Assembly: GCA_029891385.1 (NCBI GenBank)
Contig: CM057234.1
Location: 26,026,350 to 26,090,349, forward strand
Direction: 5' to 3'
From: Erythroxylum novogranatense
Lineage: Eukaryota; Streptophyta; Magnoliopsida; Malpighiales; Erythroxylaceae
DNA length: 64,000 nt
In this document: piece by piece, positions 1-53,423 of the stretch
Position numbering within the stretch: the first letter of the stretch is position 1
Layout of the letters: each line of letters starts with the position of its first letter
Translations under genes and position numbers: made by a program
Notes under the pieces: model-generated
Databases searched by the model: none
What the model saw: only the letters and a program-made list of their open reading frames with translations
Told to the model about the DNA's origin: nothing

Positions 1-1187
1 CAGATTATAAACAAAAGTCGACCCAACGGCAAAACAATTGGACTGACAGAATCAAATCAAAAGCGAAAACGAAAGCTAAAGTCAAAGAAATCAAATCGGA
101 TCAAAGGCGAAAGAATCGAAAACGAATCGAATTCTTAATGAGCCATAGAAAAAAATCGAAAGGCTCGGAATTACAAAATTTTGGAAACAAATAAACCAAA
201 ACAATCAATCAACTAAAAGCTCAAATTTCGACATCCGTGAATGCATACTTTAGAAAAACGCGCGTTGGAAACCTTAAACTAAACCAATCCGAAACCGATA
301 TAAATTTTTTTCTTTCATTTTATTCATCTTTATTCAAAACCATTCCAATCTCCCATTTGGAATTTATCAAGTCCACAAACTCAAATATTTTATCCTTCAC
401 ATTCATACATGTCACAATATTCATCTTTTAACCAAAACTTATTTTTCTTTAAACATACAATCACACATATTGCTATACACAATCAAGCCATACACATAAA
501 GCACTTCTATATTCCCAGCTCAATCAACACAATTCATCGGACCTCCTGTCCGGAATCCTAACACAATCAAACACATCCATATGCCATAGCACTTCAATAA
601 TTCTCAATCAATCAACATTATCAGACCTCCTGGCCGGAATCCAGACGCAATCAATCATAATCATTACACAAACCATAATTCATCATACACAATTTCATAA
701 TTCAAGTCCTTATACAAATTCTTAAATCATTCACATCATGAAATAAATGCTTACAAAACATTAATGGCATTCCAAGCCATATACAAAACCTGTAGCACCC
801 CACTCTCGCAAGACCCGAACCTGATATCGATGGTGATATCCGAGACCAAGCCCCGCGAGGGTGGTGTACGAAGCACTCGATCAATCAAAATTCGGTATCT
901 ATTTTTCCTCTTTAAAGACACGCATGATGAAGTCAATAATCAAATAGGTCAAAAGCCCTTTTTCATCATACAAGGCCATTTACAAAATTCCCATATGGCC
1001 ATTTGGCCCTTTCACAAATACAAACACTTGAGTCATTTCAAAATACAATTCATACGGAAGTTGCATAATAAACAATTTAATACAAAAATATAGACATGCA
1101 ATGCAGACGCGAACTGATCCCGGCCTCTATCCTTCACTTGAACACTGTAAGTATACTCCCGTTGGCCTAACGGGGTATTCTTCTTAT

Positions 1188-1200
1188 CCTGAAAAACAGT
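1188..1200 (-). promoter_or_regulatory. Candidate splice acceptor near the LTR 3' end
   Basis: On the minus strand the sequence is CTGTTTTTCAG followed by GATAAG: a pyrimidine run ending in AG, 15-20 bp after the conserved CACCCAAAATTTGCAAC block. The same block and acceptor occur at 23879 and 32243 on the plus strand and at 43426 on the minus strand. Use in splicing is inference. Confidence 0.45.
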
Positions 1201-1410
1201 TGCAAATTTTGGGTGAGTTTTGCGAACTCAATGAAAGACCATCATTGATGGCTCACCCAAACACATAACACATATGTCGCACATTATGCAGAATTCCAAT
1301 CTCACATTCGCCATTCAGTACACTTAAACATTTGTATTATGCATATGCCATTTAGATGAGACTCACATTCGTTCTTAATGTTGTGACTGAGTGCCTCTCA
1401 CATAGACAGA

Positions 1411-1493
1411 GTACTAGCCTGTAGGCTTAGTCAAATCAAAATACTGGCCCGTAGGCTTAGTCGAATCAAAATACTGGCCCGTAGGCTCAGTCA
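1411..1493. repeat. 30-bp tandem triplicate in solo LTR
   Basis: 'gtaggct(t/c)ag' recurs at 1421, 1451 and 1481, exactly 30 bp apart, with 'atcaaaatactggcc' between copies. It lies in the distal part of the minus-strand LTR, between the candidate mini-exon and the distal acceptor. Confidence 0.85.
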
Positions 1494-1884
1494 CATCACA
1501 TAATCACGGAGCATAGCTCTACGTGGAAGCGCTTCATACGGGCGACTCAAGTCACAACGCCTTTATATTTCATGCATTCATGCCATGGAATGCATCACTT
1601 ACATTGCATGCACTTATTCGATCACAATCACTTATCATCGGACCGTAGTCCGGCATTCAACATATAGTTGAGAATTCACACTTAACTTGCATGCAATAAC
1701 ACATTCAGAATTCACTAGCAAACACTTCCGTGCACTCAGTTCATCTCATTCACATACCATTAGCACTTCAATCTCCAAATCACAATCACAATCACATTTA
1801 GATACACATTCATCATACAGAGATCAATGTATACAAAATTCAAATAAAGTAGACAATGAAGTGAGACCATCTAGGTCTACTCAC

Positions 1885-1946
1885 AGTACGCTCCAGATTA
1901 GCATTTGCTTTCAATTTATGGGAACGCCTGAATCCAGACACTTGAC
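1885..1946 (-). other. Candidate LTR mini-exon, 62 nt
   Basis: On the minus strand, GGTTGTGCAG precedes it and GTGAGTAGACC follows it, so it has an acceptor AG and a strong donor GTGAG at its two edges. The homologous block at 59767-59818 keeps the same borders (TTGTGCAG and GTAAGTAGACC) although surrounding sequence has diverged. An upstream donor GTATG lies at 2521-2525. See the finding on spliced LTR leaders. Confidence 0.45.
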
Positions 1947-2520
1947 CTGCACAACCATTTATGCAAGACACACATTGCACACTCATCAATAATTGCACAC
2001 ATAAAACATTCATTTATACACAATTGTAATAATGGACTATGTACAATGCATGCTCAATGACAATCTTGGGCATATGTTTTAGAACACATTTTATACTCAT
2101 TTCTATTTCAAAATTCATGTGTCTCTAATTGAACTTAGACTTACACTTTCTTTGTATATGATCAATCTAAATGCTCCTTTCAATCTTTACCCTTTTTATA
2201 TGCTAGCTTATTCATAAGCTTACACTACAAGAACACTTGGTTACTTTATATCATAACTCAATTTCTCATCATCTCTTATCTATCCTCATATGATCTCATA
2301 ACATCCAATTCCCATTCATGGTTTAGCACTTCATTCTTATAAACACACTTAGGTAGGATTCTCTTAATTTCCTCATACAAACAAAATCTCATTCAATAGG
2401 AATCCACTTTAAGATCCCACAATGCATAATCACTGAAATTAGTTCTAGAACATTTCAACCCAAGCATTTTCTAAACTCCATAAACTAGAATCTTTACAAA
2501 GATTCAAAGATTCAATTGAT

Positions 2521-2768
2521 CATACCTTGATTCTTCACCAAATGAAGAGATCTTCAGCTCAAATGGAAGCTCTTTTCTTCCTCTTCCTTATTCTCTTCTT
2601 GAACACTTCAAAATTTCTCTTGAAGGCCAAAGAATTTAAAACCCTAGCTTGTTTTCTCTTCCTTCTCTCTTTCATTTCTTTTTTTCATGTTCTCTCTCTT
2701 ATCTCTTTTCTAATCCACTCGTTTTGCTTCTCTAGAATCTTCTCATTCACGTTTCTCCTTTATTTATA
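2521..2768 (-). promoter_or_regulatory. Candidate LTR core promoter, first exon and donor
   Basis: On the minus strand a TATAAATA box occupies 2761-2768. About 210 nt further on, after a purine-rich segment, AAG is followed by GTATG (2525-2521), a plausible 5' splice site. The equivalent segments of family-B LTRs end in GTAAG at 5722-5718 and 12668-12664. Transcription start and splicing are inferred only from motif and position. Confidence 0.4.
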
Positions 2769-3603
2769 AGCAGAACATTACTTCTTCTTCCATTTATGCC
2801 CCTTAATGTGTGACAATTGTCCCATTTATCCTTCCTTATAGGCTTATGTTCTTTTAAACTTAAGTGTCTTGCCAAAAATATCCTTAATCATTCTTATATA
2901 ACAATTTCATCCAAAATCATCCTCCATTGTCTTAAGTTTCTAATGCCACCGAAACCATTCAATTTGGTTCAGTGATTCAAAAGATATACTTCAAACATTT
3001 TTTTGGACTGCTCTTGTCCAAAACAATATGCTATCTACAAATTCCATCCAAAACTTGAAACTCTTAGAGTCGGATTCAGAATTTGATTTCTCCATGTAAG
3101 TTGTAGCCCTATATTTCTAGTTTACCTTAAAATAAAAATCGTCTCATTTGGACTTCTACTGATCCAGAAAACATCAAAATACTGAAGTATGTTCAGTAGG
3201 ATAACAACATTTCATATTATTGAAGAACATACTCACTGTACCCGTCTCACTTGTTTCACTAAATCTTTCTCCATATAATTCAGATAGCTTTGATTTTTGG
3301 TGAAGATATTTAGAAAGTTCTTATGAATCCAACGATTCAAGAATCAAGTCATTTGGAGGTCCAGAGAAGAAGTTATGGACAAAACAATCCAACATGTTCA
3401 TATCCTCACCTGAAATGTACATGTCTCGGTACGAATGCCATAACTTTTGCTACAGAGGTTTGATTGACTTTGTTTTTGGACCATTGGAAAGAGAGCTTTT
3501 GGATCTAAAACTTTCATGAAGACCTTGAAGGCCAATTCTATCATCTAACTTCTGTATCGTCTCACTTTTGCATAGTCTCACTTTCCTTTCATCTTAGTTC
3601 TAT

Positions 3604-3735
3604 TGTCTCATTTCCATCGTCTGCTTTTTGCGTCTACTTTTTCCATATGCTTTTTGCGTCTACTTTTTCCATTTGCTTTTTGCATCTTCTTTTTGCTTCT
3701 GCTTTTTCCGTCTACCTTTTTTTCGTTTGCTTTTC
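3604..3735. repeat. 26-bp T-rich tandem array in solo LTR
   Basis: Copies of tgctttttgcgtctac followed by a T run start at 3622, 3648 and 3674 (26-bp steps) and then decay. The array fills the same slot that holds different arrays in the LTRs at 6913, 22621, 30981 and 58613, between the 'tttccaacg...aagttatga' block and the 'cgttggattc' block (LTR orientation). Confidence 0.75.
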
Positions 3736-4883
3736 ACGTCCAGAACGTATCCATTTATAAAGATCATAACTTTTGACCCTGATATCCAAAATTTACAAAC
3801 TTTATACCGTTGGAAAGATAAAAGAAAGATCTACAACTTTTCAGAAGGAAATTTTGCCAAAATCCATCTTTATCAATCCCAAATTTGCTCCTAAAATCCG
3901 AAGACAATTTTTTTCATTCATACACCAATACTGCACCTAATTCTTCACTTCATGACAATATTTGAGACTTTTAGACACAGAATTGAAATTCGATGTCTTC
4001 ATAAAAAATATAGCCATATATCTATAGATTAATCCAAATTAAGAATCATCTTGTTTGGACAACCACAGAAAATGTTATGGCTAAAATACTGAAGCATATT
4101 CAGTGAATATTTTTCCATATCACTACCAATCTTGTTTCTAAATCTTTCCTTCTCACAACTCATACCAAAATCACTCTTTCTACTCCTTCCACTTCTCATT
4201 TTCAAAAAAATCACATTTAATACCATTTATACCCAGAAGTTTTCAATGAATGCATGTACCACTTTTTATGTGAAAACATTTCTTATTTATGTATATATAT
4301 GCTAACATGATGCATGAGTAAGAAAATGCATTGTCTTAATTTCTCTTTGAGCTCGCATGTACTGAAATTTTGGGTCACAACCCTTAATATGGGGACGGGA
4401 TGTTACAAAACCAATACCAAAATCCAAAATACACAAAATAAGCCTAAGTTCTTATTTTTACAATAATCCAACTTAAACCAAAATACAAAAGCGATCATAA
4501 ACATGACGAACGAACGTCTTGTCTTTCTTTCATCCGATCTCCTTCATGATTACTTGGAGATGGTGATGAAAGGGGGTGAGCTTTACAGCTAGTGGATAAC
4601 ATGTTTATAAATAAAAAAATAAGCAAAAATCATTTTTGAAAACTTTTGTCATTTCATCAAATCTCACGGTAGAAATTTGGCAAAAAGCTTATTTCTCAAA
4701 CTTTTCAACTTCTCAAATCATTCATAATCAATTTTAAACATTTCACGGTAGAAAAATTCATCAAATGCTTATTTTTCAAAATTTTTCAATTTATCAAAAT
4801 AATTCATAAACATGAATGCATCACGTTTATTAACATAAACAAAAACACATAATACATCATAAATGGTTTGGGTCGGTCCAAAA

Positions 4884-20482: not shown

Positions 20483-21283
20483 TGTAACATCCCCTCTCCT
20501 ATAGGAAGGGCATTTTGGTAATTAGGATGGGTTCGGGATATTAAATTATATCTCGGCATGCACATACATCTCTATAATTACTGATTGGTTGCACATGCAC
20601 ATAGTATACATGCATTCATGACATTTTCCGGCTTAGGTTTTAAATTGAACTTCTGTGTGAAGTTAATGGAGTAATTGAGTTTGAAAAATTATTTGGACTG
20701 CACCATTAATTGTTTTACATTTTTAGGGATTTTTAGGAATTTTTCTGGATTTTCCGAGACAATTTTGACCGGTAAAATCGCCAATTGGCTTAATCGTCGA
20801 TTCTTGGTAGCAAAGATTGCTACCCAATGGTACAAGAATATGGGGTATATTATTTTGGGACTGAAAGTAAGGTTATTAGAGTTAAATGGAGTAAAATTTT
20901 AGATCGGATTAATTAACTAATATTTTGACTTTTCAAATAATAAAAAAAGAAAGAAGAAAAGGAGCCAATTACATGTTGCCATCTAAAAGCAACATTAATG
21001 CTTCTTTTCATTGTTCTGAACGTGTAAGTGTTTAAAGGAAGGATAAATGGTTAGACATTTTGGTTATCTCATCCGAAACTCTTACAACTTAAACTCTTCA
21101 TAAAACCATCGACTTTGTTTGCTCTTTACTCATCTTTCTTCATACCTTTAAGCTATCATCTTTGATTCCATCAAAGCTAGATGATGATGAGTATGGTACA
21201 TGCTTGGGAAGGAAAGGTAGTTGAGACCTTGGTGTAGGATTTAGAAGTTGGTTCTTGTAGGTTTGAAGGAGATTTGGTGTTAG

Positions 21284-21289
21284 GTAAGT
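21284..21289 (+). promoter_or_regulatory. Candidate splice donor in Tekay-like 5' LTR
   Basis: TTAG followed by GTAAGTTTT matches the donor consensus. The same site is at 29643 in the 3' LTR, and a homologous TTAG-GTAAGAAT lies at 55358 on the minus strand. A weak TATA-like TCATAAAACC is at 21098-21107. Confidence 0.45.
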
Positions 21290-21719
21290 TTTCATTTAAG
21301 GGTTGAGTTTTTAAATGAGGTTTGCATATGGAATTTAATGCTGCCAATTTTTCAGTGTTAGCCCTAGTGTATGTATGACTGTAGTGATATTTAATTTGAA
21401 TTTATTTTGATGTCTAATGAGGTGAAAAAGGTATTGAAAGTGATTGAACTAAGGTTAGCCTTGAGTCTGGAAAATTGGAATTTGAATTGATGTTACTGTT
21501 TTATTCATAACTTATAGTATAGAAATGCAAATGAGGTAAAGTTAGTGGCTACTGAAACTTTGGGATGTTGGCTTCAATTTAGTGTGAAATAGGTGTTGTT
21601 GAATTTCAATGATAGAAGGGTGAATTTTGCATGGAAAGTTGCTGTTCCATTGACCTATGAACAGTAACCGCAACATAATAACTGAGTTTTGTTGATTTTA
21701 TGAATTAATTGAGATGGAA

Positions 21720-22560
21720 TTAGGAGAATGATCTTCATGGAAGTTGTAGCATATATGATTATCTTTCCATTGCCTCTGATCTTGCTATTTTCGAGTTGTA
21801 TGTTAGGAGATATGACCTGATTACTGATGACTGTTTTCATGCATTGGCTGAAACCTAGCTGGATTGGCACATTTAGTGCATTTTCGGGTTTGGAGGAATT
21901 TTAGGAATTTTGTGACTTGATTTGGGGTTTGCATTGTACTGAAGAGTTTTAGATATCAGATTGATCTTGAAAATGGTATATGGCTTATAAGTTTTGGAGG
22001 TCAGATGTGGGAAATATGGAATTTCAAAATCTGGACCTACATTGTGATATTAAGTGTTGTTTAGGTCAGACACTTGCATGACAGATTTGAAAATGTTAGA
22101 GGCTGAATTGGAGTTTGGTTATTTCAGGAAGAATTGAAGTTTGGGATTCTATCTTTTCAGGGGTATAAAGCTCTGATTTTAATGACTTGTCTACAGGGAG
22201 TTATGTTGGTTATAAATTTACTGCTCAAATTGCATGGTTTCAGGGACAGTAACATTGAGTGAATTAATTGACTTGGTTTGCAATAGAATTTGAATTTGGG
22301 TTGTTCATGAAAGTTGTAGAGGACATTGTGAACTTATTGACCATATTTTTGTGGTAATTTATTACTGAAGAATATGTGAGTTGTGAAATTGTTAATGTAC
22401 TGCCCTGTGTTAGTTGAGAATTGAGTAGGCAGAAGGTTTGATGGGATTTTTGACATTCTTAGGGTTGGAATTGATTTTTATGGTCTTCTTGAGAGTTGTA
22501 GAGCTTTTCATAAGCTTTCCAATGAGGTATAGTGGGTATTTTTCTGAGTTGTGTGCTTAA
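21720..22560 (+). repeat. Degenerate ~181-bp modules in Tekay-like 5' LTR
   Basis: Same phrase as in the minus-strand LTRs, read on this strand as 'ttcatgaaagttgtag' and 'tttccaatgaggtata'. The last two landmarks, at 22306 and 22488, are 182 bp apart; an earlier one lies at 21736. Units are more eroded than at 53880-54760. Confidence 0.5.
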
Positions 22561-22620
22561 AGTTAGAAGTTGGAAGTTAAGTTTGTAATCTGGAAAGAAG
22601 GAAAGCAAGAGAAGGGGTCA

Positions 22621-22788
22621 CCTCATGAGGCGACAAGTCGCCTCATGGAGGCGAGACAGGCTCGCCATCTCGCGAGGGCGAGATTGCGCCTCATGAGGGC
22701 GAGCATTAGGGGTCGGGTCGCGAGGGGCGCCCGCCCATGACTGCGAGAGGCGATTTCGCCTCGCGTCGATATATATATATATATATAT
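22621..22788. repeat. CG-rich palindromic array and TA run, 5' LTR
   Basis: Repeats of cctcgcgagggcga and its variants, many self-complementary, followed directly by a (TA)n run from 22769. Four CGCG cores of the 3' LTR array are CATG here (22624, 22644, 22692, 22736), while three others are unchanged. Confidence 0.85.
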
Positions 22789-23190
22789 TTTTATTTTTAT
22801 TTTGATTATTATTTGATATTAATTGGTAAAATTGTTCTTTGTCAATTACTTTCCGTCCGACGTCCGATCGACCTAATTCCAGAGGCATCGGATTGGTTGA
22901 ATATTTAATTTCATTTTTCGAGAAAACGGAATTTTAGGCGGAATTGGACGTAGCCCTATCGATTTTAACTTGTAAACACTGCTTTATTTAATTGGGGACC
23001 TATAGAGGTCCGAATTGCGCACCGTCAGCGCCTATGGATTTCTAATTTTTCATCGAATTTTATTATGAGGAAATATTGGATTAGGGCCGGGATTTGCCAT
23101 GAACATGCATTATACATATTTTACTGATTTCATGTGCATTGTTTAATCATTTACACAAATGGTAATAGTTATTCATTTAATTTGTTATAG

Positions 23191-23258
23191 AGGCTCCAGT
23201 GGACCATCGTTCCACAGATTTGGCAGAGACTTCCCGGCGTTAGCGTGGAAGTTGTTAG
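23191..23258 (+). other. Candidate LTR mini-exon, 68 nt
   Basis: Preceded by ATTTGTTATAG and followed by GTGAGTAAC after GTTAG. Its sequence aligns with the block at 53356-53423 (minus), sharing 'cacaga', 'gagacttcc' and a 'ttagc...gaag' tail, and both keep AG before and GTGAG after. The distal acceptor is TTATTTTTCAG at 23869-23879. Confidence 0.5.
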
Positions 23259-24263
23259 GTGAGTAACCTAGTTGGTTATTCCAATCTATGTGTTTACTGT
23301 GATTGATTGCCCTACGGGGACTACATGAATTATAATTGTGATTTGATTGCCCTACGGGGATTATGTGGTATTATCTGACTATGATTTACATAAGGTATCT
23401 GTTTAATTGGACTGTCTACTTGAACTGTGTAATACCATGTATACTGTTATGGGACATGTGCATTCATGCACAAATACATCACACTGTTAAAAGGAAAATT
23501 GTGAACCGAGGCGCCACTGTACTGAACCGAGCCTAGAGCTCGATATACTGAACCGAGCCTCGAGCTCGCGACGGAGATACTTCTCCCAGACGCGTCTATA
23601 CCGATCAACATTATGCGCTTCGGTCACAATCTTGAAATGAGCTGGAAAAAGAGTCACGTGTGCATTGCATCTTGGATTTTATATCGACAATATTTTTACA
23701 CGGGTGTATATTTACCGTCTCGGACCGTAATTATTACGGATTGTATTCATGTTGTGTTTTGTATAATTATCTGCGTATATCTTGTTTCATGCTTATATGA
23801 TGCATGAATTGGGAGAACCATCGATGATGGTTTCTCATTGAGTTCGCAAACTCACCCAAAATTGCAACTTATTTTTCAGGCCTAGCATGATGCAGATAGC
23901 TCCCTCGGACCGTAGTAGAGCAGATACTGATGGATTGGCGAGAAAAACAATGGCTCAAAGGTCGGTCAGCTGGGCTTTCTTTTGGAGACTGATAGTTAGA
24001 TCTGGTTATTGTATAGTACAGTATGTGAAACATGTGTAACTTAAAAAGTACTGACAGTTGTGAATTATTAAGTTTTGAATGAATGAAATGGAATCTAGTT
24101 TGGTTTTAAAAAGTAGCCAGTTTCTTATTACTGTCTTATGATTGTGATGCCATGAGGAGTGTAGTAGTTGTTGTCGGTAGTGGTCTCTTGTCGTAGGATA
24201 TGTATCGGAATGACCTACGGGCGTTCTGGTGGATACCCTATGGTAAGGGGGCGCTACATTTGG

Positions 24264-24275
24264 TGGTATCAGAGC
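24264..24275 (+). other. Primer-binding site of Tekay-like element
   Basis: TGGTATCAGAGC, five bases after the 5' LTR end, a perfect plant initiator-methionine tRNA type PBS. Confidence 0.93.
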
Positions 24276-24431
24276 ATGGTTTGGCATCTTTTGGGAATAG
24301 TAACAATATAGGTATGAATCAGATGGAACTGTTGAAACTGATCAGAATTTTTGTTTTGTTTTAGGTCTTGATGATTAGGTGATCAGTTGAGCGCCACGGA
24401 CCAGGATCCGTGGGAGCAAGTAGGAGTCTTC

Positions 24432-25375
24432 ATGCCTCGTCTTGAGGAGTTGCCTCCTCGAGTTCCGTGAGGCGGAAAGGAGGTATGACTTTTGCTTGTG
24501 GGGTCAGAGATTTTATGGCAAGATGCACCCACGAGGCCGAGGATGGTTGGAGAGGATGAGAGAGTCTTGATCAGATGGATGCGAACGATGAGAGGTTCGA
24601 TTATGCGAGATCACGTTGCAGGCCCAAGATATAAGTGGTGGAAGGCGTGCGAGCGGTACCACTGTGCCTTGCTTGTTGACATAATTTGAGTTTCGAGGGC
24701 CTTCAAGGATAATTATATGCCCAAGGTCTATCTTGATATGAAGATGCAGGAGTTTCGGAACTTAAGGTGGTAGGATGTCGGTGGTGATTATGAGGTAAAA
24801 TTTAATGAGTGATAGATTATGCTCTCGTGATGGTCCCGATCGAGGCCGATAAGTGCCGGAGGTTCGAGAATGGCCTCAACACCGAGATCCGTCAGGTTGG
24901 CTTGGTGGGACATGGGTACATTCATTGAGTTGAGGGCCGCCGTTAGAGTGGAGCGGTGATGAGACAGACAGTGAGATTGGGTCCCGGTAAGCGCCCAAGT
25001 GATAGTCGAGGCACTCTGGCGGGAGCTTTAGTAAGCGCCTGTGAGCGGGACTTTCGAGTCTCCGGAGGTTCGAGACGATCTGGATTTGGGCGAGAGGAGA
25101 TTTGGATCGGTGGTAGTGGTAGTGGTAGAGGCTCGGACATATTTCTCCAGCAGCCCGCATTGTGAGAGGAGGCACATGGGAGTGTTGGTGGATTCTTGGA
25201 GCTGTTTGAGGTGCGGCTCGACGGAGCATCGTGTCGTGGATTGCCTCGATACATTGAGAGTTCGATCCATTGGTAGCGGACGAGCCGGGAGTTCCACTCT
25301 TGTCTGTGCAGTAGAGAGTGGTGGATCCGGACGGAGGGCCGAGGTAGAGGCCGTGGTAGAGCTGAGGGGTCCTTT
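24432..25375 (+). pseudogene. gag: Tekay-like gag (shattered)
   Basis: Capsid and nucleocapsid remnants in shifting frames. A plausible start is the ATG at 24432 (MPRLEELPP). Recognisable parts are a capsid segment with YKWWKACERYH (about 24632), a 'NYMPKVYLDMKMQEFRNLR' segment (about 24711), 'NGLNTEIRQVG' (about 24870) and a CCHC knuckle CLRCGSTEHRVVDC (CX2CX4HX4C, about 25205-25246). Stops and single-base shifts separate these parts, so no gag protein could be made. The minus-strand open frames over 24876-25567 are shadows of this GC-richer segment. Confidence 0.8.
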
Positions 25376-27263
25376 GTGAGGACTGAGGGTCGGGGCGGCC
25401 GACCACAGTCCCAGGCGAGAGTATACGCCATGACACGGCAGGAGGCCCAGGATTCCCCTGATATTGTAGCTGGTATGCTTCTCATCTCTGATATTGAGGC
25501 ATTTGCATTGCTGGATCCAGGATCCACGCATTCTTTTATTGCACCTCATATGGCATGTAGATTGCATGGGGATAGGGAGATGTTACAGTATGGGCTAGAG
25601 GTGAGTACACCTCTAGGTACTACTACTGCATTGGGAGAGGTCTGCAGGGGATGCTCGATTGATTGATCAGCAAGATTGAGGCGGACCTTATAGTGTTGCC
25701 TCTGAGAGAGATCGATGTCATTCTGGGGATGGATTGGCTTACTGCTCATAGGGCTATCATGGACTGCTATACCAAGGAGGTTGTGTTGGAGTCTCCTGGT
25801 CAGCCTAGAGCAGTGTTCAGAGGAGTTAGCCAGGCAAAGATGCCGGCCGGATGATCTCTTTCCTTAGTGCCCTGAGGTTGATGCAGGGAGGTTGTGAGGC
25901 CTATCTGGCTCATGTGATTGACACCAGAGTTGAGCAGAGGCTTCAGGATATTCCCGTGGTTAGGGAATTTCGGATGTGTTTCTGATGAGTTACTGGGTTT
26001 GCCACCGGATCGGAGAGCGAGTTTACCATTGACCTCGTTCTGTACCGCCCTATATCTATACCCCATATAGGATGGCACTGTGGAACCGAGGGAGTCAAGG
26101 TTGATTCAGGAGTTGTTGGAGAAGGGTTTATCGGACCCAGTGTTTCACCATGGGAGCTCCAGTTTTGTTTGTGAAGAAAAAGGATGGGACTTTGAGGCTG
26201 TGCATCGATTATAGGCAAATGAATCGGTGTGATGAAAGAATAAGTACCCACCGCCTAGGATTGATGACTTATTTGATCATTGCAGGAGCTCGGTGTTCAC
26301 CAAGTTAGATCTGCGATCCGTTACTATCGATTGAAGATTGCAGAGGCCGATGTGCCTAAGAGTGCCTTCAGGAGCAGGTATGGGCATTTCGAGTTTCTAG
26401 TGATGCCGTTTGGGTTGACAAATGCCCCGGCAGCTTTTATGGCCTTGATGAATAAGGTATTTCAGCCCTACCTGGATCAGTTTGTTATTGTTTTCATTGA
26501 TGACATTTTGGTGTATTCGAGGGATAGAGCGGAGCATAGTGAGCATTTGAGAATTGTGTTACGACGATGAGGAGAGGCGGTTGTTCGCCAAATTCAGCAA
26601 ATGTGAATTTTGGCTGGATCAGGTGATCTTTCTGGGGCATATAGTGACTGGTGAGGGTATTCAGGTAGATCCGAGTAAGGTAGAGGCAGTGCTGCAGTGG
26701 GAAGCTCCTAGGAATGTGCCGGAGATTCGGAGTTTCCTCGGATTGGCTGGTTATTACCGGAGGTTTGTCGAGGGGTTTTCATTGATCTCATTTCTCCGAC
26801 AAAACTTCTGAGGAAGAATATGCCATTCAGATGGACCGAGGAGTGTCAGAAGAGTTTTGAGGAGCTGAAACATCGGTTGACTACTGCACCGGTGTTGGCT
26901 ATTCCATCTGGGACTGGAGGATTTGAAGTGTACAGTGATGCATCACATCAGGGATTGGGATGTGTTCTGATGCAGCATGGTAGAGTCATTGCCTATGCCT
27001 CGAGACAGTTGAGGACTCATGAGGTAAACTATCCTGTTCATGATTTGGAGTTAGCTGCAGTAGTATTTGCATTGAAGATTTGGAGGCATTACCTGTATGG
27101 TGAGACCTTTCAGATCTTTACTGACCATAAGAGTTTGAGATACCTACTGAGTCAGAGAGAGTTGAATTTGAGACAGAGGAGGTGGCTTGAGTTGTTGAAG
27201 GATTACGACTGTACTATTGAGTATCACCCTGGAAAAGCTAATGTGGTGGCGTATGCTCGGTAG
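25376..27263 (+). pseudogene. pol: Tekay-like protease, RT and RNase H (broken)
   Basis: The protease segment around 25490-25850 has LLDPGSTHSF, where the family usually has D-S/T-G; the middle residue is Pro here. Then come the 'DVILGMDWL' flap region, RT pieces ([15 protein letters not shown] near 26166, [14 protein letters not shown] near 26395, FIDDILVYS near 26494), the thumb region [13 protein letters not shown] (about 26742), and RNase H with a YSDAS start, [12 protein letters not shown] and [11 protein letters not shown] (26820-27263). At least three frame changes and several stops separate these pieces. Domain content and order are unmistakable, but enzyme activity is excluded. Confidence 0.9.
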
Positions 27264-27499
27264 GAAGTCACATACTAGTGCAGGCTTTATTCGTGCAATG
27301 AGGTTGCCTAATTTGATCTGATTGAGAGCTTTGAATGTGCGATGAATGGAGCAGGGATGGAGTATTATTGGCTACACCGAGACCGAGACCGATGCTACTT
27401 GGGATGAATCGGGAGGGTTCGGATAAGGATCTGTTATGGTGAGACCGATTGAGAAAGCGAAGGCCGATTCGAGATCCGAGTTTGAGTTGAGAGATGAGA

Positions 27500-28847
27500 C
27501 TCTATGGATGGGGCGAGGCTTTGTGTGCCCGATGTAGATGATCCGAGGCGAGATACCGGAGGAGGCTCATATGGCCACATATGCTATGCATCCCGGTACT
27601 ACCAAGATGTATAACACTCTCAAGCAACATTTCGGTGGCTGGTATGAAGAAGCGGTAGCCGAGTACGTGTCAGTGTTTGACGTGCTGCAAGTTAAGTGAG
27701 CACCAAGCTCCATAGAGGAAGCTTCATTCGTTGCCCATTCGAGTGGAAATGGGAACGGATCACCATGGATTTCATTATGGGGTTGCTTAGACGCCGAGGC
27801 AAAGATGATGCTATCTCGGGTCATAGTAGACCGGTTGACTAAATCGGCTCATTTCTTGGCAGTGAGGGAGAATAATACCATGGATCAGTTGGCCCGGAAG
27901 TATGTGACGGAGATAGTGAGACTGCACGGGGTTCCAGTGTCGATAGTGTCTGACAGGGATCCCAGATTCACCTCGAGGTTCCGCGAGTTTGCGATTTGCT
28001 ATGGGTACTAGTTGAACTTCAAGATGCTGCTTCATCCTCGCATGATGGGCGAGTGAGAGGACGATTAAGACTGTTGAGGATATGCTTCGGGCATGTGTAT
28101 TGGAGTTCAGAGGAGCATGGGATCAGTATTTAGCCCTGATTGAATTTGCATATAACAATCATTACCATAGTAGCATCGGATGGCTCCATATGAGGCAATC
28201 GTATGGGCGGCCGTAGATCGCCTTTGTATTGGGATGAAGAGGGTGTGAGGATGATTGAGGGTCCTGAGCTGATTCAGGATACGGTTGATAAAGTGCAACT
28301 GATACGGAGTCGCATTAAGGCGGCTCAAGATAGACAGAAGAGCTATGTTGATCAAGACAGAGGGACATTGAGTATAATGTGGGCGATGAGTATTCTTACG
28401 GTGTCACCGTATGCGTGGTGTACCGAGATTTGGGAGAAAGGTAAGTTAAGCCCTAGTACATTGGTCCATATGAGATCACCGAGAGGATCGGACCTTTGGC
28501 CTCTGAGCTAGCTTTACCGAGTGAGATGTCTCAGTTACATGACGTCTTTCATGTGAGTATGCTCCGCAGATATCGGTCGGATCCGACACATGTAATATCG
28601 GCTCAGGAGATTGAGGTCTCCAGTAATCTGAGTTATGTGGAGGAGCCGATCCAGATTATCGGGTCTCAGGTGAAACAACTGAGGAATAAGAGTATTCCAC
28701 TAGTGAAGGTTCTCTGGCGGAACCATTCGACTGAGGAGGCTACCTGGGAGACCGAGGAGCATATGAGAAGACAGTATCCTCACCTTTTCGATCAATCAGG
28801 TAAGAATTTCGAGGACGAAATTTTTGTTAGGAGGGGAGAATTGTAAC
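27500..28847 (+). pseudogene. pol: Tekay-like integrase and chromodomain (broken)
   Basis: The integrase HHCC region is partial (YAMHPGTTKMYNTLK near 27580). The core has TMDFIMG (about 27764), [13 protein letters not shown] and [13 protein letters not shown] (27827-27986), and a decayed E-region near 28050 (gagagg). The C-terminal part contains LHDVFHVSMLRRY (about 28536-28574) and a chromodomain-like tail (28610-28800) with YVEEPIQI, VKVLWRNHSTEEATWETEE and YPHLF. Chromodomains direct chromovirus integration to modified chromatin. The reading frame is interrupted several times between 27263 and 28496. The frame ending at 28846 overlaps the PPT and the first bases of the 3' LTR. Confidence 0.88.
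28829..28841 (+). other. Polypurine tract of Tekay-like element
   Basis: AGGAGGGGAGAAT immediately before the 3' LTR. Confidence 0.85.
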
Positions 28848-30980
28848 ATCCCCTCTCCTATAGGAAGGGCATTTTGGTAATTAGGATGGGTTCGGGATAT
28901 TAAATTATATCTCGGCATGCACATACATCTCTATAATTACTGATTGGTTGCACATGCACATAGTATACATGCATTCATGACATTTTCCGGCTTAGGTTTT
29001 AAATTGAACTTCTGTGTGAAGTTAATGGAGTAATTGAGTTTGAAAATTATTCGACTGCACCATTAATTGTTTTACATTTTAGGGATTTTAGGAATTTTCT
29101 GGATTTTTAGGAGACAATTCTTGACCGTAAAATCGCCAATTGGCTTAATCGATCGATTCTTGGTAGCAAAGATTGCTACCCAATGGTACAAGAATATGGG
29201 GTATATTATTTTGGGACTGAAAGTAAGGTTATTAGAGTTAAATGGAGTAAAATTTTAGACTGGATTAATTAACTAATATTTTGACTTTTCAAATAATAAA
29301 AAAAAAAGAAAGAAGAAAAGGAGCCAATTACATGTTGCCATCTAAAAGCAACAGTTAATGCTTCTTTTCATTGTTCTCGAACGTAAGTGTTTAAAGGAAG
29401 GATAAATGGTTAGACATTTTGGTTATCTCATCCGAAACTCTTACAACTTAAACTCTTCATAAAACCATCGACTTTGTTTGCTCTTTACTCATCTTTCTTC
29501 ATACCTTTAAGCTATCATCTTTGATTCCATCAAAGCTAGATGATGATGAGTATGGTACATGCTTGGGAAGGAAAGGTAGTTGAGACCTTGGTGTAGGATT
29601 TAGAAGTTGGTTCTTGTAGGTTTGAAGGAGATTTGGTGTTAGGTAAGTTTTCATTTAAGGGTTGAGTTTTTAAATGAGGTTTGCATATGGAATTTAATGC
29701 TGCCAATTTTTCAGTGTTAGCCCTAGTGTATGTATGACTGTAGTGATATTTAATTTGAATTTATTTTGATGTCTAATGAGGTGAAAAAGGTATTGAAAGT
29801 GATTGAACTAAGGTTAGCCTTGAGTCTGGAAAATTGGAATTTGAATTGATGTTACTGTTTTATTCATAACTTATAGTATAGAAATGCAAATGAGGTAAAG
29901 TTAGTGGCTACTGAAACTTTGGGATGTTGGCTTCAATTTAGTGTGAAATAGGTGTTGTTGAATTTCAATGATAGAAGGGTGAATTTTTGCATGGAAAGTT
30001 GCTGTTCCATTGACCTATGAACAGTAACCGCAACATAATAACTGAGTTTTGTTGATTTTTATGAATTAATTGAGATGGAATTAGGGAGAATGATCTTCAT
30101 GGAAGTTGTAGCATATATGATTATCTTTCCATTGCCTCTGATCTTGCTATTTTTCGAGTTGTATGTTAGGAGATATGACCTGATTACTGATGACTGTTTT
30201 CATGCATTGGCTGAAACCTAGCTGGATTGGCACATTTAGTGCATTTTCGGGTTTGGAGGAATTTTAGGAATTTTTGTGACTTGATTTGGGGTTTGCATTG
30301 TACTGAAGAGTTTTAGATATCAGATTGATCTTGAAAATGGTATATGGCTTATAAGTTTTGGAGGTCAGATGTGGAAATATGGAATTTCAAAATCTGGACC
30401 TACATTGTGATATTAAGTGTTGTTTAGGTCAGACACTTGCATGACAGATTTGAAAATGTTAGAGGCTGAATTGGAGTTTGGTTATTTCAGGAAGAATTGA
30501 AGTTTGGGATTCTATCTTTCAGGGTATAAAGCTCTGATTTTAATGACTTGTCTACAGGGAGTTATGTTGGTTATAAATTTACTGCTCAAATTGCATGGTT
30601 TCAGGGACAGTAACATTGAGTGAATTAATTGACTTGGTTTGCAATAGAATTTGAATTTGGGTTGTTCATGAAAGTTGTAGAGGACATTGTGAACTTATTG
30701 ACCATATTTTTGTGGTAATTTATTACTGAAGAATATGTGAGTTGTGAAATTGTTAATGTACTGCCCTGTGTTAGTTGAGAATTGAGTAGGCAGAAGGTTT
30801 GATGGGATTTTTGACATTCTTAGGGTTGGAATTGATTTTTATGGTCTTCTTGAGAGTTGTAGAGCTTTTCATAAGCTTTCCAATGAGGTATAGTGGGTAT
30901 TTTCTAAGTTGTGTGCTTAAAGTTAGAAGTTGGAAGTTAAGTTTGTAATCTGGAAAGAAGGAAAGCAAGAGAAGGGGGTC

Positions 30981-31156
30981 ACCTCGCGAGGGCGACAAGT
31001 CGCCTCGCGGAGGCGAGACGGGCTCGCCATCTCGCGAGGGCGAGATTGCGCCTCGCGAGGGCGAGCATTAGGGGGGTCGGGTCGCGAGGGCGACGCCCGC
31101 CCTCGCGACTGCGAGAGGCGATTTCGCCTCGCGTCCGTATATATATATATATATAT
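30981..31156. repeat. CG-rich palindromic array and TA run, 3' LTR
   Basis: The less altered copy of the array: CTCGCGAG-type cores recur about seven times in 155 bp, with direct and inverted copies, then a (TA)n run. Transcribed RNA could fold extensively. Confidence 0.85.
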
Positions 31157-31556
31157 TTTTATTTTATTTTGATTATTATTTGATATTAATTGGTAAAATT
31201 GTTCTTTTGTCAATTACTTTCCCGTCCGACGTCCGATTGACCTAATTCCAGAGGCATCGGATTGGTTGAATATTTAATTTCATTTTCGAGAAAACGGGAA
31301 TTTTAGACGGAATTGGACGTATTTCTATCGATTTTAACTTGTAAACACTGCTTTATTTAATTGGGGACCTATAGAGGTCCGAATCATGCACCGTCGGCGC
31401 TTATGGATTTCTAATTTTCATCGAATTTTATTATGAGGAAATATTGATTAGGGCCGGATTTGCCATGAACATGCATTATACATATTTTATCGATTTCACG
31501 TGCATTGTTTAATCATTTACACAAATGGTAATAGTTATTCATTTAATTTGTTATAG

Positions 31557-31624
31557 AGGCTCCAAGGGACCATCGCTCCACAGATTTGGCAGAGACTTCC
31601 CGGCGTTAGCGTGGAAGTTATTAG
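31557..31624 (+). other. Candidate LTR mini-exon, 3' LTR copy
   Basis: 68 nt between TTATAG and GTGAGTAAC, identical in layout to 23191-23258. Confidence 0.5.
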
Positions 31625-32613
31625 GTGAGTAACCTAGTTGGTTATTCCAATCTATGTGTTTACTGTGATTGATTGCCCTACGGGGACTACATGAATTATA
31701 ATTGTGATTGATTGCCCTACGGGGATTATGTGGTATTATCTGACTATGATTTACATAAGGTATCTGTTTAATTGGACTGTCTACTTGAACTGTGTAATAC
31801 CATGTATACTGTTATGGGACATGTGCATTCATGCACAAATACATCACACTGTTAAAAGGAAAATTGTGAACCGAGGCGCCACTGTACTGAACCGAGCCTA
31901 GAGCTCGATATACTGAACCGAGCCTCGAGCTCGACGGGAGATACTTCTCCCTGCACGCCGCCTATACCGATCACCGTTATGCGCTCGGTCACAATCTGAA
32001 ATGAACCGGAAAAGAGTCACGTGTGCATCAGCATCTTGGATTTTATATCGACAATATTTTTACCGGTGTATATTTACCGCATCGTGATCTGTAATTATTC
32101 GCGGATCGTATTCATGTTGTGTTTTGTATAATTACTGCGTGTATACTGTTTCATGCTTATATGATGCATGAATTGGGAGAACCATCGATGATGGTTTCTC
32201 ATTGAGTTCGCAAACTCACCCAAAATTGCAACTTATTTTTCAGGCCTAGCATGAGCAGATAGCTCCTCAATTTGTAGAGTCAGATACAAATGGATTGGCG
32301 AGAAAACAATGGCTCAAAGGTCGGTCATTGGGCTTTCTTTTGAGACCGATAGTTAGATCTGGTTATTGTATAGACAAGATGTGAAACATGTAACTTAAAA
32401 AGTCTCGACAACAGAATTATTAAGTTTTGAATGAATGAAATGGAATCTAGTTTGGTTTTAAAAGTAGCCGGTTTTATTTCTTGTCTTATGATTGTGATGC
32501 CATGAGGAGTGTAGTAGTTGTTGTCGGTAGTGGTCTCTTGTCGTAGGATATGTATCGGAATGACCTACGGGCGTTCTGGTGGATACCCTATGGTAAGGGG
32601 GCGCTACAAAATG

Positions 32614-43022: not shown

Positions 43023-43668
43023 TGTAGCGTCCCCTTACCGCAGGGTCCACACTGGGACACCCGCAGGTCATTTCGGTACATATCCTCCGATAAGGGTGAG
43101 CTACGAACAATCACTACAAACACTCCACTTGGCATCATAATAAAACATTAATATAAAAATCACAAACTTTTTGAAACCAAAATTTTCTTTTTTCCTCATT
43201 TCATTTCATAAAAACCAAAAGTTTACACATCTGTCAGTTTTCACTATCTGTACAACACTCCAAAACCCTAATACAATATGCTACATGAAAGAGGAGAAAT
43301 ACTGCAGATCTATCTAGATCATCCCAAAAGTCCCAGCTGACCGACCTGTGAGCCATGACTTCTCCCGCCAAAATGATATACACGGCTCCAAAAGTCCCTC
43401 TGGAGCTAGGAGTCTACTCTCGGTCCTAAAAAAATGTTGCAATTTTGGGTGAGTTTGCGAACTCAGTGAGGTAACCATCATCGATGGTTCACTCAATTCA
43501 TGCAACAATCAGGCATATCACAATTATTTCATAATTTCACATACATCAGAAGTACCACATGATCACTGATTGAGCCCAAGTTTAATATATAATTGGCTAC
43601 ACTTTCAAGGTTGTTAATGCATTTTTTGACTCTTAATTCATGATTTTTGTGTTTAAATGAGTCTCTTA

Positions 43669-44703
43669 TGTAAGTGATCTAGAAGGGGGGGTTGAATAGA
43701 TCTTTAAAATACTTTGAAAATTTCTACAAGAAAATCAGAAGTTAAAACACACAAAAACAATTTTGATAAACTTAATTAAAAAGTGTAGGGAAGAAGGTCA
43801 AACACTATTTTTATAGAGGTTGGTCTAAGACCACGCCCTCTACCTAAGCTCCCACTTAGGATTTTGTCAACCACTTTATTGCACACTTTGTAGTTGAGTG
43901 TGAACTTTTTACAATCCCACTTGAATTTCGGCTCAAGCAACCTTTACACTCGATTTGTCTTCCGGCACAAATCCTACCTCACGTGAGCTAGCCACTCAAA
44001 TTGTAAGTAAAACAATACAAAGATTGAAGAACAAATGCTCAATACAATTTGTAACAAAATAAGAGCAATAGTGAGCAATTAGAAGCAGTATAAGAGTATT
44101 TGAACTTGTAGAACTTGTATATACTCTTCTTCCATCATCCTCTATTTATACTTGAAGAAATATAGCTGTTGGAGCTCTACTAGCCGTTGCTTAATTGGAT
44201 ATAGCCGTTTCTTGATAATCTCCATTCCATTTTTATCAAATTGGACCGTTGGAGCTGATTTCGTGCATCCATAAGTCGACTTGTCGAATGTATAAGTCAA
44301 CTTGTTTCAACCATTTACGTAAAAGTTTCATCTCCGCTCTCCAATAAGTCGACTTGTTCCGTGTAAGTTGACTTGTCGTACTCGATAAGTCGACTTGTGT
44401 TTGATAAGTCGACTTGTATTGACATTGCTTCATCTGTAAGTCGACTTGTGCTTTGTAAGTCGACTTGTATTTCCTTCAATGGTAACATCCGACCAAATCC
44501 TTTATAATCCTCATGTTTTATGTCATTTTTCACTTAGAGGACAACTCCCATCTTGATTCTCCATTGATTAGACACTTGCTCATCTTGATTTGCACAATCC
44601 TTTCATTGAATAATACCTGAAATAATTTCTTAACTATTTCTAGATATTTTATTATTATCAAAACATAAAGGGATTTAATTTGTCAACCACCATTGGTCCA
44701 ACA
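43669..44703 (-). repeat. Sirevirus 2 3' LTR, 1035 bp
   Basis: In plus-strand view TGTAAGTGATC to GGTCCAACA. TATAAATAG (minus) at 44152-44160; palindrome array 44271-44470 about 110 bp upstream of it in LTR orientation, with eight copies of ataagtcgacttgt or close variants. Confidence 0.95.
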
Positions 44704-44916
44704 ATCTCCCCCTTTTTGATAATGACAAAATATGTAGAAATTGACAAGAAATTTGAAGGACATAAAATTTGATCAAGGTTTCCCTTATCTTGATGGTTAG
44801 GTTGTCTCCCCCTTAATTTATAAAGTAAAAATTTAAAATGCAAATCAATGAAATTTTCATTTTCACTTTTCACTCCCCCTAAATCAAATATCAATTTCAA
44901 TCTTACTCCCCCTTTT
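44704..44916 (-). other. Multiple polypurine tracts of Sirevirus 2
   Basis: On the minus strand: AAAAAGGGGGAGAT ending at 44704 next to the 3' LTR, AAGGGGGAG at 44806-44814, AGGGGGAG at 44873-44880 and AAAAGGGGGAGT at 44905-44916. Same arrangement as in Sirevirus 1. The region from here to the pol stop at 45201 holds nothing else I recognise. Confidence 0.85.
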
Positions 44917-45200
44917 GTCATAATCAAAAAATTAGAGAAAATGAAGAGTAATGAAATTTAGAACCAAACATAACATCAAACACAAATGATAGTAATAGTC
45001 ATTACAAGAAAATGTCAAACAAACACAAATACAACATAAAACAAAACAGAAGTCAAAATGTTGGTCAAGGCATAAAAGGTGTGTCCAAAACTCCAAATAA
45101 GTCACTTATTCAGCCCAAGTAACCAACACGATGAATGTATCTTCGGATGTGATTGCACTTTTGCCTCAAATTTTGACCATTTAATGTAGCAAAATCAAAT

Positions 45201-48200
45201 TCAACCAAAAGAATTCAAATCACACATGCCTAACCTTAATTTAATATTTACAAACACATCTTCCTTAAGAGGCTTAGTAAAAATGTCAGCCAATTGATCA
45301 CTAGACGAAACATGTTTCAAAACAATGTCACCTTTCAAACAATGATCACGAATGAAATGATGTCTAATTTCAATGTGCTTTGTTCTACTATGCAATATAG
45401 GATTTTTACTCAAACAAATAGCACTGGTATTATCACAATAGATAGGAATGTTTTTAACAACAATACCATAATCAAGCAATTGATGTTTAATCCAAAGAAC
45501 TTGGGCACAAGCACTCCCAGCTGCTACATATTCAGATTCAGCAGTGAAAATGGCTACACTAACTTGTTTTTTACTAGCCCAAGATATCAAAGATGATCCT
45601 AAGAAATGACATAATCCACTAGTACTTTTTCTATCAATTCTACAGCCACCATGATCAGCATCACTATAAGCATACAAATCAAATGAATCACAACTAGGAT
45701 ACCACAAACCATGATTAATAGTTCTACTCAAATATCTAAAAATTCTTTTACAAGCACTCAAGTGAGAAATCTTAGGACAAGATTGAAATCTAGCACAAAG
45801 ACATGTGGCAAACATTATATCAGGTCTAGAAGCAGTTAAATACAAGAGAGAGCCGATCATACCTCTATAAAATTTTTGATCAACATATTCTTCATGTTCA
45901 TTTTTCTCCAAGACCACATTTGTTGCCATTGGTGTTGTTGCCACTTTGCATCCTTCCATTTTAAACTTCTTAAGAAGTTCCTTTGTGTACTTTGATTGAT
46001 GGATGAATATTCCATTTTTGTGTTGCTTGATTTGCAATCCAAGAAAGAACTTGAGTTCTCCCATCATGCTCATTTCAAACTCACCTTGCATTAAATTGCT
46101 AAATTCTTTACACAAAAATTCATTAGTGGCACCAAACACAATGTCATCAACATAAATTTGACAAATAAACATATCATTATCAACATGTTTAATAAACAAC
46201 GTATTATCTATCTTACCACGAACACATCCATGTTGAGTTAGAAAAGTACTTAACCTCTCATACCATGCTCTTGGTGCTTGCTTTAGTCCATAAAGTGCCT
46301 TCTTGAGTTTGTAGACATATTCCGGATGCTCATGATCTTCAAATCCCGGTGGTTGTTTGACATAGACTTCCTCTTGAATATACCCATTGAGAAATGCGCT
46401 CTTGACGTCCATTTGATTTAATTTGATCCTTTTATGAGAAGCAAATGCACATAGTAGCCTAATTGCCTCCAAACGAGCCACAGGAGCGTATGTCTCATTG
46501 TAATCAAGGCCTTCTTCTTGATAAAATCCTTGAGCCACTAGCCTTGATTTATTTTTAATCGCTTCACCATTCTCATCATATTTTATCCGATTTACCCACT
46601 TGACTCCAATGATGGTCTTGTCCTTTGGTGGAGCTACCAAATCCCATACATCATTTCGCTTGAACTGATTAAGCTCCTCTTGCATAGCTAAAAGCCAGTT
46701 TTCATCTTTAAGAGCTTCTTCTATATTTTTGGGTTCTACCAATGAAATGAAGGCTGAATTACTCATATTCTCATAGATATTTCTCCTAGTTCTTACACTA
46801 ACATTTAAATCACCAATGACTTGCTCCATAGGATGATTCTTTGCTTTTGCCCATGATTTAATGTCGGGTACATGATTTTCTTCGTCTAGCTTCAATTCCT
46901 CAATCTTGGATTCAATTTCTTCAATTTTATTTCCTGAACTTCTTGCATCATCATCAAAATAAGCCTTTCTCGGGGGTGAAATCATATCATCAAATTTAAC
47001 ATGTATACTTTCTTCAACACATTTAGTCCTATTATTATAAACTCTAAAAGCCTTACTAGTTTGAGAATAACCAATAAACACACCAATATCGGATTTAGAA
47101 TCGAATTTTCCTAAATTGCTCTTTCCATTATTATGAATAAAAACTTTACAGCCAAAAGGATGAAAATAAGAGATATTAGGTTTCTTACCTTTCCATAGCT
47201 CGTAAGGTGTCTTATTTTTGTCTCTTCGTAAATGCACCCTGTTAATGACGTAGCATGTCAGTGTTGATCGCTTCTACCAAAATGATTTAGGAAGATTGTA
47301 CTCATTTAACATGGTTCTGCTCATTTCTTCAAGAGAACGATTCTTCCTTTCTACAACACCATTTTGTTGCGGAGTCCTTGGTGTCGAGAAATTGTGCTCC
47401 ATCCTGTATTTGTCACAAAGACTTTCGAAAGGTTCACATTCAAATTCTCCTCCATGATCGGTTCTAATTGCAACGATCGACAAATTTTTCTCATTTTGAA
47501 CCAATCTACACCACTTGGTAAATTCATTAACGGCATCACTTTTATTCGCAAGAAACCTTACCCAAGTAAATCTAGAAAAATCATCTACAATCACAAGGAC
47601 ATATAATTTTCCACTAAGACTAGCATGCCTAGATGGTCCAATCAAATCCATATGCACAAGTTCAAGAATTCTAGATGTGCAAATTTCTTTCTTTGGTTTG
47701 AAAGATTCTCTAACATGTTTGCCCTTTAAGCAAGATTCACATAAGTGATCTTTAACAAATTTGATTTTAGGCAATCCCCTTACTATGTCATTTTTCGAGA
47801 GTTTAGAAATTAATGGCAAAGGAGCATGTCCTAATTTTCTATGCCACAAAAATGCATTTTCTTCTAATGTTACTAGACACTTTTCATTAAAAGAACTATC
47901 ATCATGCAAATCTACAATGTATGTATTTCCATGTCTCAAACCAATGAAAGCAACATGTCCATCCTTTCTAACAGTGCAATGTGATGATTCAAATACTACA
48001 TTAAAATCCATATCACAAAGTTGAGAAACACTTAACAAATTATGTTTCAACCCATCAACAAGCAAAACATTGTCAATGGTTGGCAGAGGTTCCTTACCCA
48101 CTTTACCAATACCAATGACCTTACCTTTGTTGTTGTCTCCAAAAGTGACATAACCTTGATTCTTTGGTTTAACTTCGGGAAAAAGTTTCTTGTCTCCACT

Positions 48201-48266
48201 CATGTGTCTTGAACATCCGCTATCGATGTACCAAGTGCTTGACGGCCTTTCATCCCTTGCTTGTAC
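45201..48266 (-). pseudogene. pol: Sirevirus 2 pol, almost open
   Basis: Protease WYIDSGCSRHM, GAG-pre-integrase HRKLGHAPLP, integrase HMDLIGP / RTDHGGEF / GVVERKN, RT with YVDD and the APVARLEAIRLL block, RNase H with SDADHGG and a 3' end at 45201. The frame opens at 48266, immediately after a TAG, and is +1 relative to gag. The only break is at 47238-47276: a single-base loss and a nearby single-base gain put about 30 bp out of frame and create TAG at 47274-47276; both flanks are in the same frame. Apart from this patch it aligns with Sirevirus 1 throughout. Activity depends on that patch and on how pol is reached from gag. Confidence 0.92.
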
Positions 48267-49939: not shown

Positions 49940-49952
49940 CCCGGATACTTCT

Positions 49953-49964
49953 GCTCTGATACCA
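49953..49964 (-). other. Primer-binding site of Sirevirus 2
   Basis: Minus-strand TGGTATCAGAGC, two bases from the LTR, a perfect initiator-methionine type PBS. Confidence 0.92.
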
Positions 49965-49966
49965 AT

Positions 49967-51000: not shown

Positions 51001-51175
51001 TCTTACGGTGAGCTTATGTTTTATGCAATTTGCTAGTAAAATTGTACAAATTGTCATTAATTGCATTATAATTTTTCTAAGAACAATTGATACTGCAAAT
51101 TATTATTTTATATTGTAGGAGAAAAGGAGTCAAAAAGGATCAGAAGAGTCAACACGGCATGAAGTCCTTAAGGCA

Positions 51176-51334
51176 TGTCGCGGCGTGAACTAATCGCCTG
51201 CCGCGACGAAATGTAATTCCCACGTCGCAGCGCATCAACACAAGATCGTACGTCGAGACATCAATAATTCAACTCGTCGCGGCGAGCAAGCTAGAGCACA
51301 CGTCGCGACAAGAATTAATTCACACGTCGCGACG
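51176..51334. repeat. CGTCGCGACG palindrome array in Athila-like solo LTR
   Basis: Seven copies of the 10-bp palindrome CGTCGCGACG or near variants start at 51176, 51199, 51223, 51251, 51275, 51301 and 51325, so steps of 23-28 bp. Variants are mostly single CpG-type changes. A decayed TATA-like 'ctttaaat' follows at about 51401. Confidence 0.85.
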
Positions 51335-53355: not shown

Positions 53356-53423
53356 CAATAGCTTCTGAAGCTAATGTTTGGAAGTCTCGGCAATGTCTGT
53401 GGGTTGACATTCCAAATGTGCCT
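53356..53423 (-). other. Candidate LTR mini-exon in Tekay-like solo LTR
   Basis: Minus strand: CTGTTATAG before, GAAGCTATTG then GTGAGTGACC after; 68 nt. It aligns with 23191-23258. Its donor partner upstream is TTAG-GTAAGAAT at 55358, and its distal acceptor CATTTTTTTAG ends at 43426, beyond the nested elements; intron 2 would be about 665 nt without them. Confidence 0.5.

Follow-up and report, generated by a model that had tools for sequence, protein, structure and literature searches.

Long terminal repeats (LTRs) of related chromodomain Ty3/gypsy retrotransposon families in Erythroxylum novogranatense very likely contain a functional spliceosomal intron, here termed intron 1, with a promoter-proximal exon (exon 1) on one side and a short one (exon 2) on the other. 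We arrived at this interpretation, in which we have high confidence, from a window (the whole stretch of 64,000 nucleotides analysed; NCBI GenBank assembly GCA_029891385.1, contig CM057234.1, positions 26,026,350 to 26,090,349 of the forward strand) and from the genome that contains it. Precise removal of intron 1 is recorded indirectly, in rare genomic copies without it that occur in three families, which we call TK, S2 and 57k. Splicing of LTR-started RNA from donor 1 to acceptor 1 is strongly supported by these copies, and in vivo removal of intron 1 is very probable. The features concerned, in window coordinates with a slash at the proposed cut, are as follows.

20483..24258, + strand: 5' LTR of the TK element, with target-site duplication AAATG, ends TGTAAC...CTACA and 96.2% identity to 28842-32608
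21284..23190, + strand: intron 1 of that LTR, AG/GTAAGT ... TTATAG/, precisely missing from rare genomic copies
23191..23258, + strand: exon 2 of that LTR, a 68-nt mini-exon with a GC content of 54% and no ATG
24259..28841, + strand: TK internal region, with protease, reverse transcriptase (RT), RNase H and weak integrase and chromodomain pieces in broken frames
28842..32608, + strand: 3' LTR of TK, with donor 1 at 29643, acceptor 1 at 31556, exon 2 at 31557-31624, donor 2 at 31625 and acceptor 2 at 32243
43023..56182, - strand: S2, a solo LTR that carries nested inserts, with donor 1 at 55358, acceptor 1 at 53424, exon 2 at 53423-53356, donor 2 at 53355 and acceptor 2 at 43426
791..4407, - strand: S1, a solo LTR, with donor 1 at 2525, acceptor 1 at 1947, exon 2 at 1946-1885, donor 2 at 1884 and acceptor 2 at 1189
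57264..60900 (end approximate), + strand: 57k LTR, with donor 1 at 58020, acceptor 1 at 59766, exon 2 at 59767-59818 and donor 2 at 59819

LTR ends were located for TK, S1 and S2, which are flanked by 5-bp duplications (AAATG, GGTTT and AACAC, respectively). Pieces of the TK internal region match RVP_2, RVT_1, RT_RNaseH and Chromo (E value 1.3e-6) in the order of a plant chromovirus, that is protease, RT, RNase H and integrase followed by a C-terminal chromodomain. The integrase part of this series is weak, as the rve match (0.0016) falls under its cut-off. All organism-named homologs of the TK RNase H among the 120 matches listed are plant proteins. The matches to protease, RT, RNase H and chromodomain identify TK as a Ty3/gypsy element with a chromodomain; Tekay, as a name for its clade, is only the label given in an earlier interpretation of these letters (hereafter the sequence-only reading).

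That interpretation proposed a donor, a mini-exon, a second donor and a distal acceptor within the LTRs, and all of the letters and coordinates that it quoted were found in place. Its own coordinates give S1 an intron 2 of 696 nt, compared with the 695 nt claimed. Intron 1 is 1.75-1.94 kb long in the TK, S2 and 57k copies in the window and would be 579 nt in S1, and exon 2 spans 52-68 nt across copies. The exon 2 blocks, described as homologous, are clearly so inside each of the pairs TK/S2 and S1/57k; from one pair to the other the homology is weak. A homologous block is indeed present in 57k, although the 52 nt ascribed to it are really a 62-nt block minus a 10-nt deletion relative to its relatives. 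In three 57k-like LTRs (L053, L054 and L056) the start of the exon 2 region looks S2-like, suggestive of an exchange of exon 2 between families.

The splice donor consensus is AG/GTAAGT, and we scored donor strength as matches to its 8 positions, with strong sites having at least 7 of 8. The only strong sense donors in the TK 5' LTR are donors 1 and 2, and donor 1 is the single strong sense donor in the S2 piece. For acceptors, we ordered the 106 YAG sites in 20500-24700 by T content. The top four are at 24364 (acceptor 3, described below), 20726, which precedes exon 1, 23879 (acceptor 2) and 23190 (acceptor 1). Overall, consensus-like borders are found at the TK and S2 donors and the TK acceptors, and the S1 and 57k donors are weaker. 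The TK exon 2 (GC 54%) stands out from its flanking introns (36% and 40%), a contrast matched in strength by about 3% of 68-nt windows of the LTR; exon 2 of 57k has no such contrast with its flanks.

Genomic copies without intron 1

If spliced RNA is reverse-transcribed, it should give rise to LTRs that lack exactly the intron. We built patterns of 29-32 bases across the exon 1-exon 2 junction for TK, S2 and 57k and searched the 1.30-Gb genome with up to 3 mismatches. There were two matches for TK, six for S2 and two for 57k, one of the last with 0 mismatches. The sequences of six of these ten matches, representing five insertions, were read out (L081, L082, L083, L084, L085 and L088). All six join exactly at donor 1 and acceptor 1 and retain the GT of donor 2, which reads GTGAAT in L083. 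They comprise the two TK matches, three precise S2 matches (L083, L084 and L088) and the 57k match without mismatches (L085), also precise. Reversed patterns had 0 matches for each of the three families, and a pattern with both breakpoints moved by 15 bases likewise had 0. By our own estimate, a 29-mer with 3 mismatches would have about 0.001 chance matches in a genome of this size. The bases common to both breakpoints vary by family (TAG in TK and S2, GT in 57k).

The TK matches (29-base pattern), L081 and L082, are the two LTRs of one element and lie 6364 bases apart on one strand. Both are without the exact equivalent of 21284-23190 and both retain donor 2; the full intron 2 was seen in L081 only. 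The sequence CTGAA, read by eye, stands at both outer ends of this element, whose surroundings resemble the gag zinc-knuckle of another element. Divergence between its LTRs is 0.053 (1099 sites), compared with 0.035 (3743 sites) for TK, and part of it is probably assembly noise. The 5' and 3' LTRs of TK differ by 85 events, many of them in homopolymer runs or near CAG/CTG and CG sites. We suspect assembly errors at methylated sites behind these differences and the broken frames of TK; such errors would cloud acceptor 2.

Within S2, intron-less L083 is 85.8% identical to the intron-bearing S2 copy (240 sites), compared with 74.9% to intron-less L084 (243 sites) and 77.8% to intron-less L088 (99 sites). 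Given that L083 is nearer to the intron-bearing copy, intron 1 was probably lost at least twice in S2. Counting TK and 57k, there were probably at least four independent losses in all. Another intron-1-less copy is perhaps present at L087 (C11:67398250-67398480), where an exon 2 related to those of S1 and 57k comes immediately after an exon-1-like sequence of another kind, which ends in GGAAATCAG. A further candidate, L086 (C11:26206640-26206960), was rejected as a spliced junction, as the end of another LTR (...GTTACA) lies a few bases inside its 57k-family exon 2.

At equal pattern length, unspliced donor-1 matches number 340 for TK and 258 for S2, compared with two and six spliced matches. 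Many of the first 100 of the 340 TK matches form pairs spaced about 8.3-8.5 kb or about 7.5-7.7 kb, which suggests two element size classes.

We interpret these observations with the following scheme. The DNA of three families supports a pathway in which donor 1 is joined to acceptor 1 in RNA initiated further upstream in the 5' LTR. DNA copies of such spliced RNA have entered the genome several times on this view, and their LTRs lack exactly the intron. Absence of intron 1 from the two LTRs of the sole complete intron-less element would place it in R. Splicing may be inefficient, or spliced RNA a poor template, since intron-bearing matches exceed intron-less ones by about 40:1 in S2 and about 170:1 in TK. 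The usual template would be unspliced RNA, use of donor 2, if any, would be confined to RNAs that leave no DNA trace, and splicing may serve gag-pol expression. The proposal that LTR-started RNA is spliced in the leader is strongly supported for intron 1, with precise copies in three families, but for intron 2 there were 0 genomic copies found at moderate sensitivity. Similarly, the idea that genomic RNA is unspliced agrees with most copies, yet intron-1-spliced RNA appears to have served as a template too. The division between translated and genomic RNA made by the sequence-only reading is plausible.

An intron in R poses a puzzle, as both LTRs should lose it whenever spliced RNA is reverse-transcribed. 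Nonetheless, intron 1 persists in hundreds of copies. The intron-less copies would constitute a DNA record of spliced-RNA templating, and template choice could be counted from assemblies alone.

Several observations count against a functional intron 1. The explanation is drawn from genomic DNA. The S1 and 57k LTRs have strong donor sites (at least 7 of 8) elsewhere, and their proposed donors score lower. Four of the ten junction matches went unread (three of the six for S2, plus the 57k match on C8, with 3 mismatches), and the shifted-breakpoint control represents a single alternative breakpoint. The last bases of the L081 3' LTR depart from the usual ...CTACA end, so that the duplication is a by-eye reading, and the independence of losses is judged from alignments of only 99-243 sites and from a single S2 copy that carries the intron. 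Nor do the AG/GT borders clearly survive while their neighbours decay, as had been claimed: within families they have no clear advantage over other GT and AG dinucleotides. Among 22 TK LTRs, the GT of donor 1 is present in 19 (the remaining three are unaligned there) and the AG of acceptor 1 and the GTGAGT of donor 2 are each present in all 22. In comparison, 38-40% of other GT/AG dinucleotides in this LTR are kept as well as these three sites, and 79% equal or exceed acceptor 2 in conservation. In the 57k family, the share of other dinucleotides conserved at least as well is 56% for acceptor 1 and 65% for donor 2; donor 1 is kept better than 95% of other GT, but is covered by 6 copies only. 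This within-family test is not sharp, because the copies are too alike.

Donor 2, the leader and competing explanations

Downstream of exon 2, five further features of the TK element bear on how donor 2 might be used.

23259..23879, + strand: candidate intron 2, with donor GTGAGT in 22 of 22 TK LTRs and acceptor 2 as CAG in 9 of 22 (region missing in one, L062)
23812..23860 (approximate), + strand: a pair of conserved stem-loops, together with a CTCAC block resembling a branch point, immediately ahead of acceptor 2
24264..24275, + strand: primer-binding site TGGTATCAGAGC in the TK leader
24312..24313, + strand: candidate donor 3, AG/GTATGA, 53 nt ahead of the end of acceptor 3
24363..24364, + strand: candidate acceptor 3, with AACTGATCAGAATTTTTGTTTTGTTTTAG directly before the cut, downstream of the primer-binding site

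Four genome patterns across the exon 2-exon 3 junction (two forms for TK, one for 57k and one for S2) had 0 matches at moderate sensitivity, gauged for TK and the 57k family, of which about 11 of 22 and 13 of 29 copies, respectively, would be detectable. For comparison, the TK exon 1-exon 2 pattern would detect 7 of 22 copies. We regard this result as meaningful, short of proof, and treat splicing from donor 2 to acceptor 2 as a candidate only. One of two readings that fit is that intron 2 contains something required for packaging or reverse transcription. The stem-loops before acceptor 2, AACCATC-gat-GATGGTT and TGAGTT-cgca-AACTCA, are near-invariant in the 59 rows examined, with one compensated pair (A-T in 27 rows, T-A in 28). 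Because there is one such pair, a packaging role is only an idea. From the block ahead of acceptor 2, an 18-base stretch was scanned once against viral contigs, with 0 matches, and scans of the window with Rfam (gathering scores) and for tRNAs had none. The primer-binding site is presumably of initiator-Met type. One locus, L003/L062 (C6:92590449-92594499), is TK-like up to the equivalent of about 23446 and then has a different end and a 57k-type leader; it is possibly a recombinant LTR.

With the RNA start (21065) and the gag ATG (24524) picked by eye, the TK leader would contain 92 upstream ATGs when unspliced; removal of intron 1 would leave 44, removal of both introns 27, and joining of donor 2 to acceptor 3 about 9.

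Two explanations dispense with splicing. The GT/AG signals could be chance matches in long AT-rich LTRs, as might be suspected from their unremarkable conservation within families and from S1 and 57k, where the most donor-like sequences are not the proposed sites. Counter to this, the TK LTR has two strong donors, and these coincide exactly with the proposed ones, and intron-less copies exist, which effectively refutes chance for intron 1; we find this explanation barely credible. Alternatively, the intron-less LTRs could derive from ordinary deletion between short direct repeats. Arguing for this is the 3-nt overlap (TAG) at the TK and S2 breakpoints. However, the same two functional borders are used in three families despite differing overlaps, the loss is common to both LTRs of one element, and the one shifted-breakpoint control gave 0. 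Deletion is very improbable, although slightly less so than chance.

The remaining explanations accept splicing of intron 1 and differ in the fate of donor 2. In the version originally put forward, introns 1 and 2 are both removed to give a short gag-pol mRNA, and unspliced RNA is the genome. The conserved donor 2 and the rank of acceptor 2 (third of 106 YAG sites by T content) are consistent with this, as are the roughly 25 bases leading up to acceptor 2, which hardly vary among TK, S2 and S1, and a YAG at acceptor 2 in 21 of 29 57k-family loci (seven without, one ambiguous; counted by eye). Against it, the four exon 2-exon 3 patterns, of moderate sensitivity, matched no copies even though such copies would retain the primer-binding site, acceptor 2 is CAG in only 9 of 22 TK LTRs, 27 upstream ATGs would be left in the doubly spliced leader, and RNA spliced at intron 1 itself appears to have been used as a template. 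We consider this version possible, but would not favour it. Much the same standing, conceivable yet tentative, is given to splicing from donor 2 to acceptor 3, which would remove acceptor 2, U5 and the primer-binding site and yield translation-only RNA, incapable of reverse transcription. Acceptor 3 is the most T-rich of the 106 YAG sites, is preceded in TK by the branch-point-like AACTGATC and is retained in 9 of 10 other places where a TK-type leader was seen (it is lost in L007). Its use would reduce upstream ATGs to about 9 and would explain the zero intron-2-less copies. Yet it is a candidate based on DNA, for which missing DNA copies are weak evidence, and no similar site was seen by eye in 150 bases of S1/57k-type leaders. 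A fuller proposal, that two-step leader splicing sorts RNA, with intron 1 removal in R tolerated by reverse transcription and the donor 2 to acceptor 3 mRNA uncopyable and used for translation only, seems to us somewhat unlikely. If it were true, the fate of an RNA would be decided by loss of the primer-binding site.

Comparison with known systems

In foamy viruses and human T-lymphotropic virus (HTLV), the major splice donor lies in R and the acceptors lie outside the LTR. The LTR intron described here resembles these systems in having a donor near the 5' end of LTR-started RNA. It differs in that donor and acceptor both lie in the LTR, and therefore both ends of the element carry the intron.

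A literature search, with most subscription papers outside its reach, returned no report of LTR-contained introns with intron-less retrocopies; for introns contained in an LTR upstream of gag it returned predicted sites in Diaspora and no proven case. One source names a retroviral major splice donor without giving its position (PMC7828637). Diaspora, a soybean Ty3/gypsy element and an env-less member of the plant retrovirus lineage, has predicted splice donors in the LTR, predicted acceptors flanking the gag start and, as here, a very long leader (PMC1142308). Its sites are predictions only (PMC1142308), whereas here the LTR contains both donor 1 and acceptor 1, and intron-less copies support them. 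Among insect endogenous retroviruses, the ZAM and Beagle subclades also use a short exon upstream of gag in splicing, but theirs is joined to env for production of an envelope protein (PMC12992720), unlike exon 2 here.

Plant LTR elements are generally without introns, with exceptions that include Ogre and EVADE (PMC12786077). Ogre, of the Tat lineage, is likewise a plant Ty3/gypsy element with a partially spliced intron (PMC6317226, PMC12786077). In the Ty1/copia elements BARE1 and EVADE, splicing yields a separate RNA for translation, a likeness to the scheme considered here, although their introns are in coding sequence rather than in the LTR (PMC3735527, PMC12786077). Amplification of spliced BARE copies from barley DNA reportedly failed (PMC3735527); in contrast, intron-less DNA copies do exist in the families described here.
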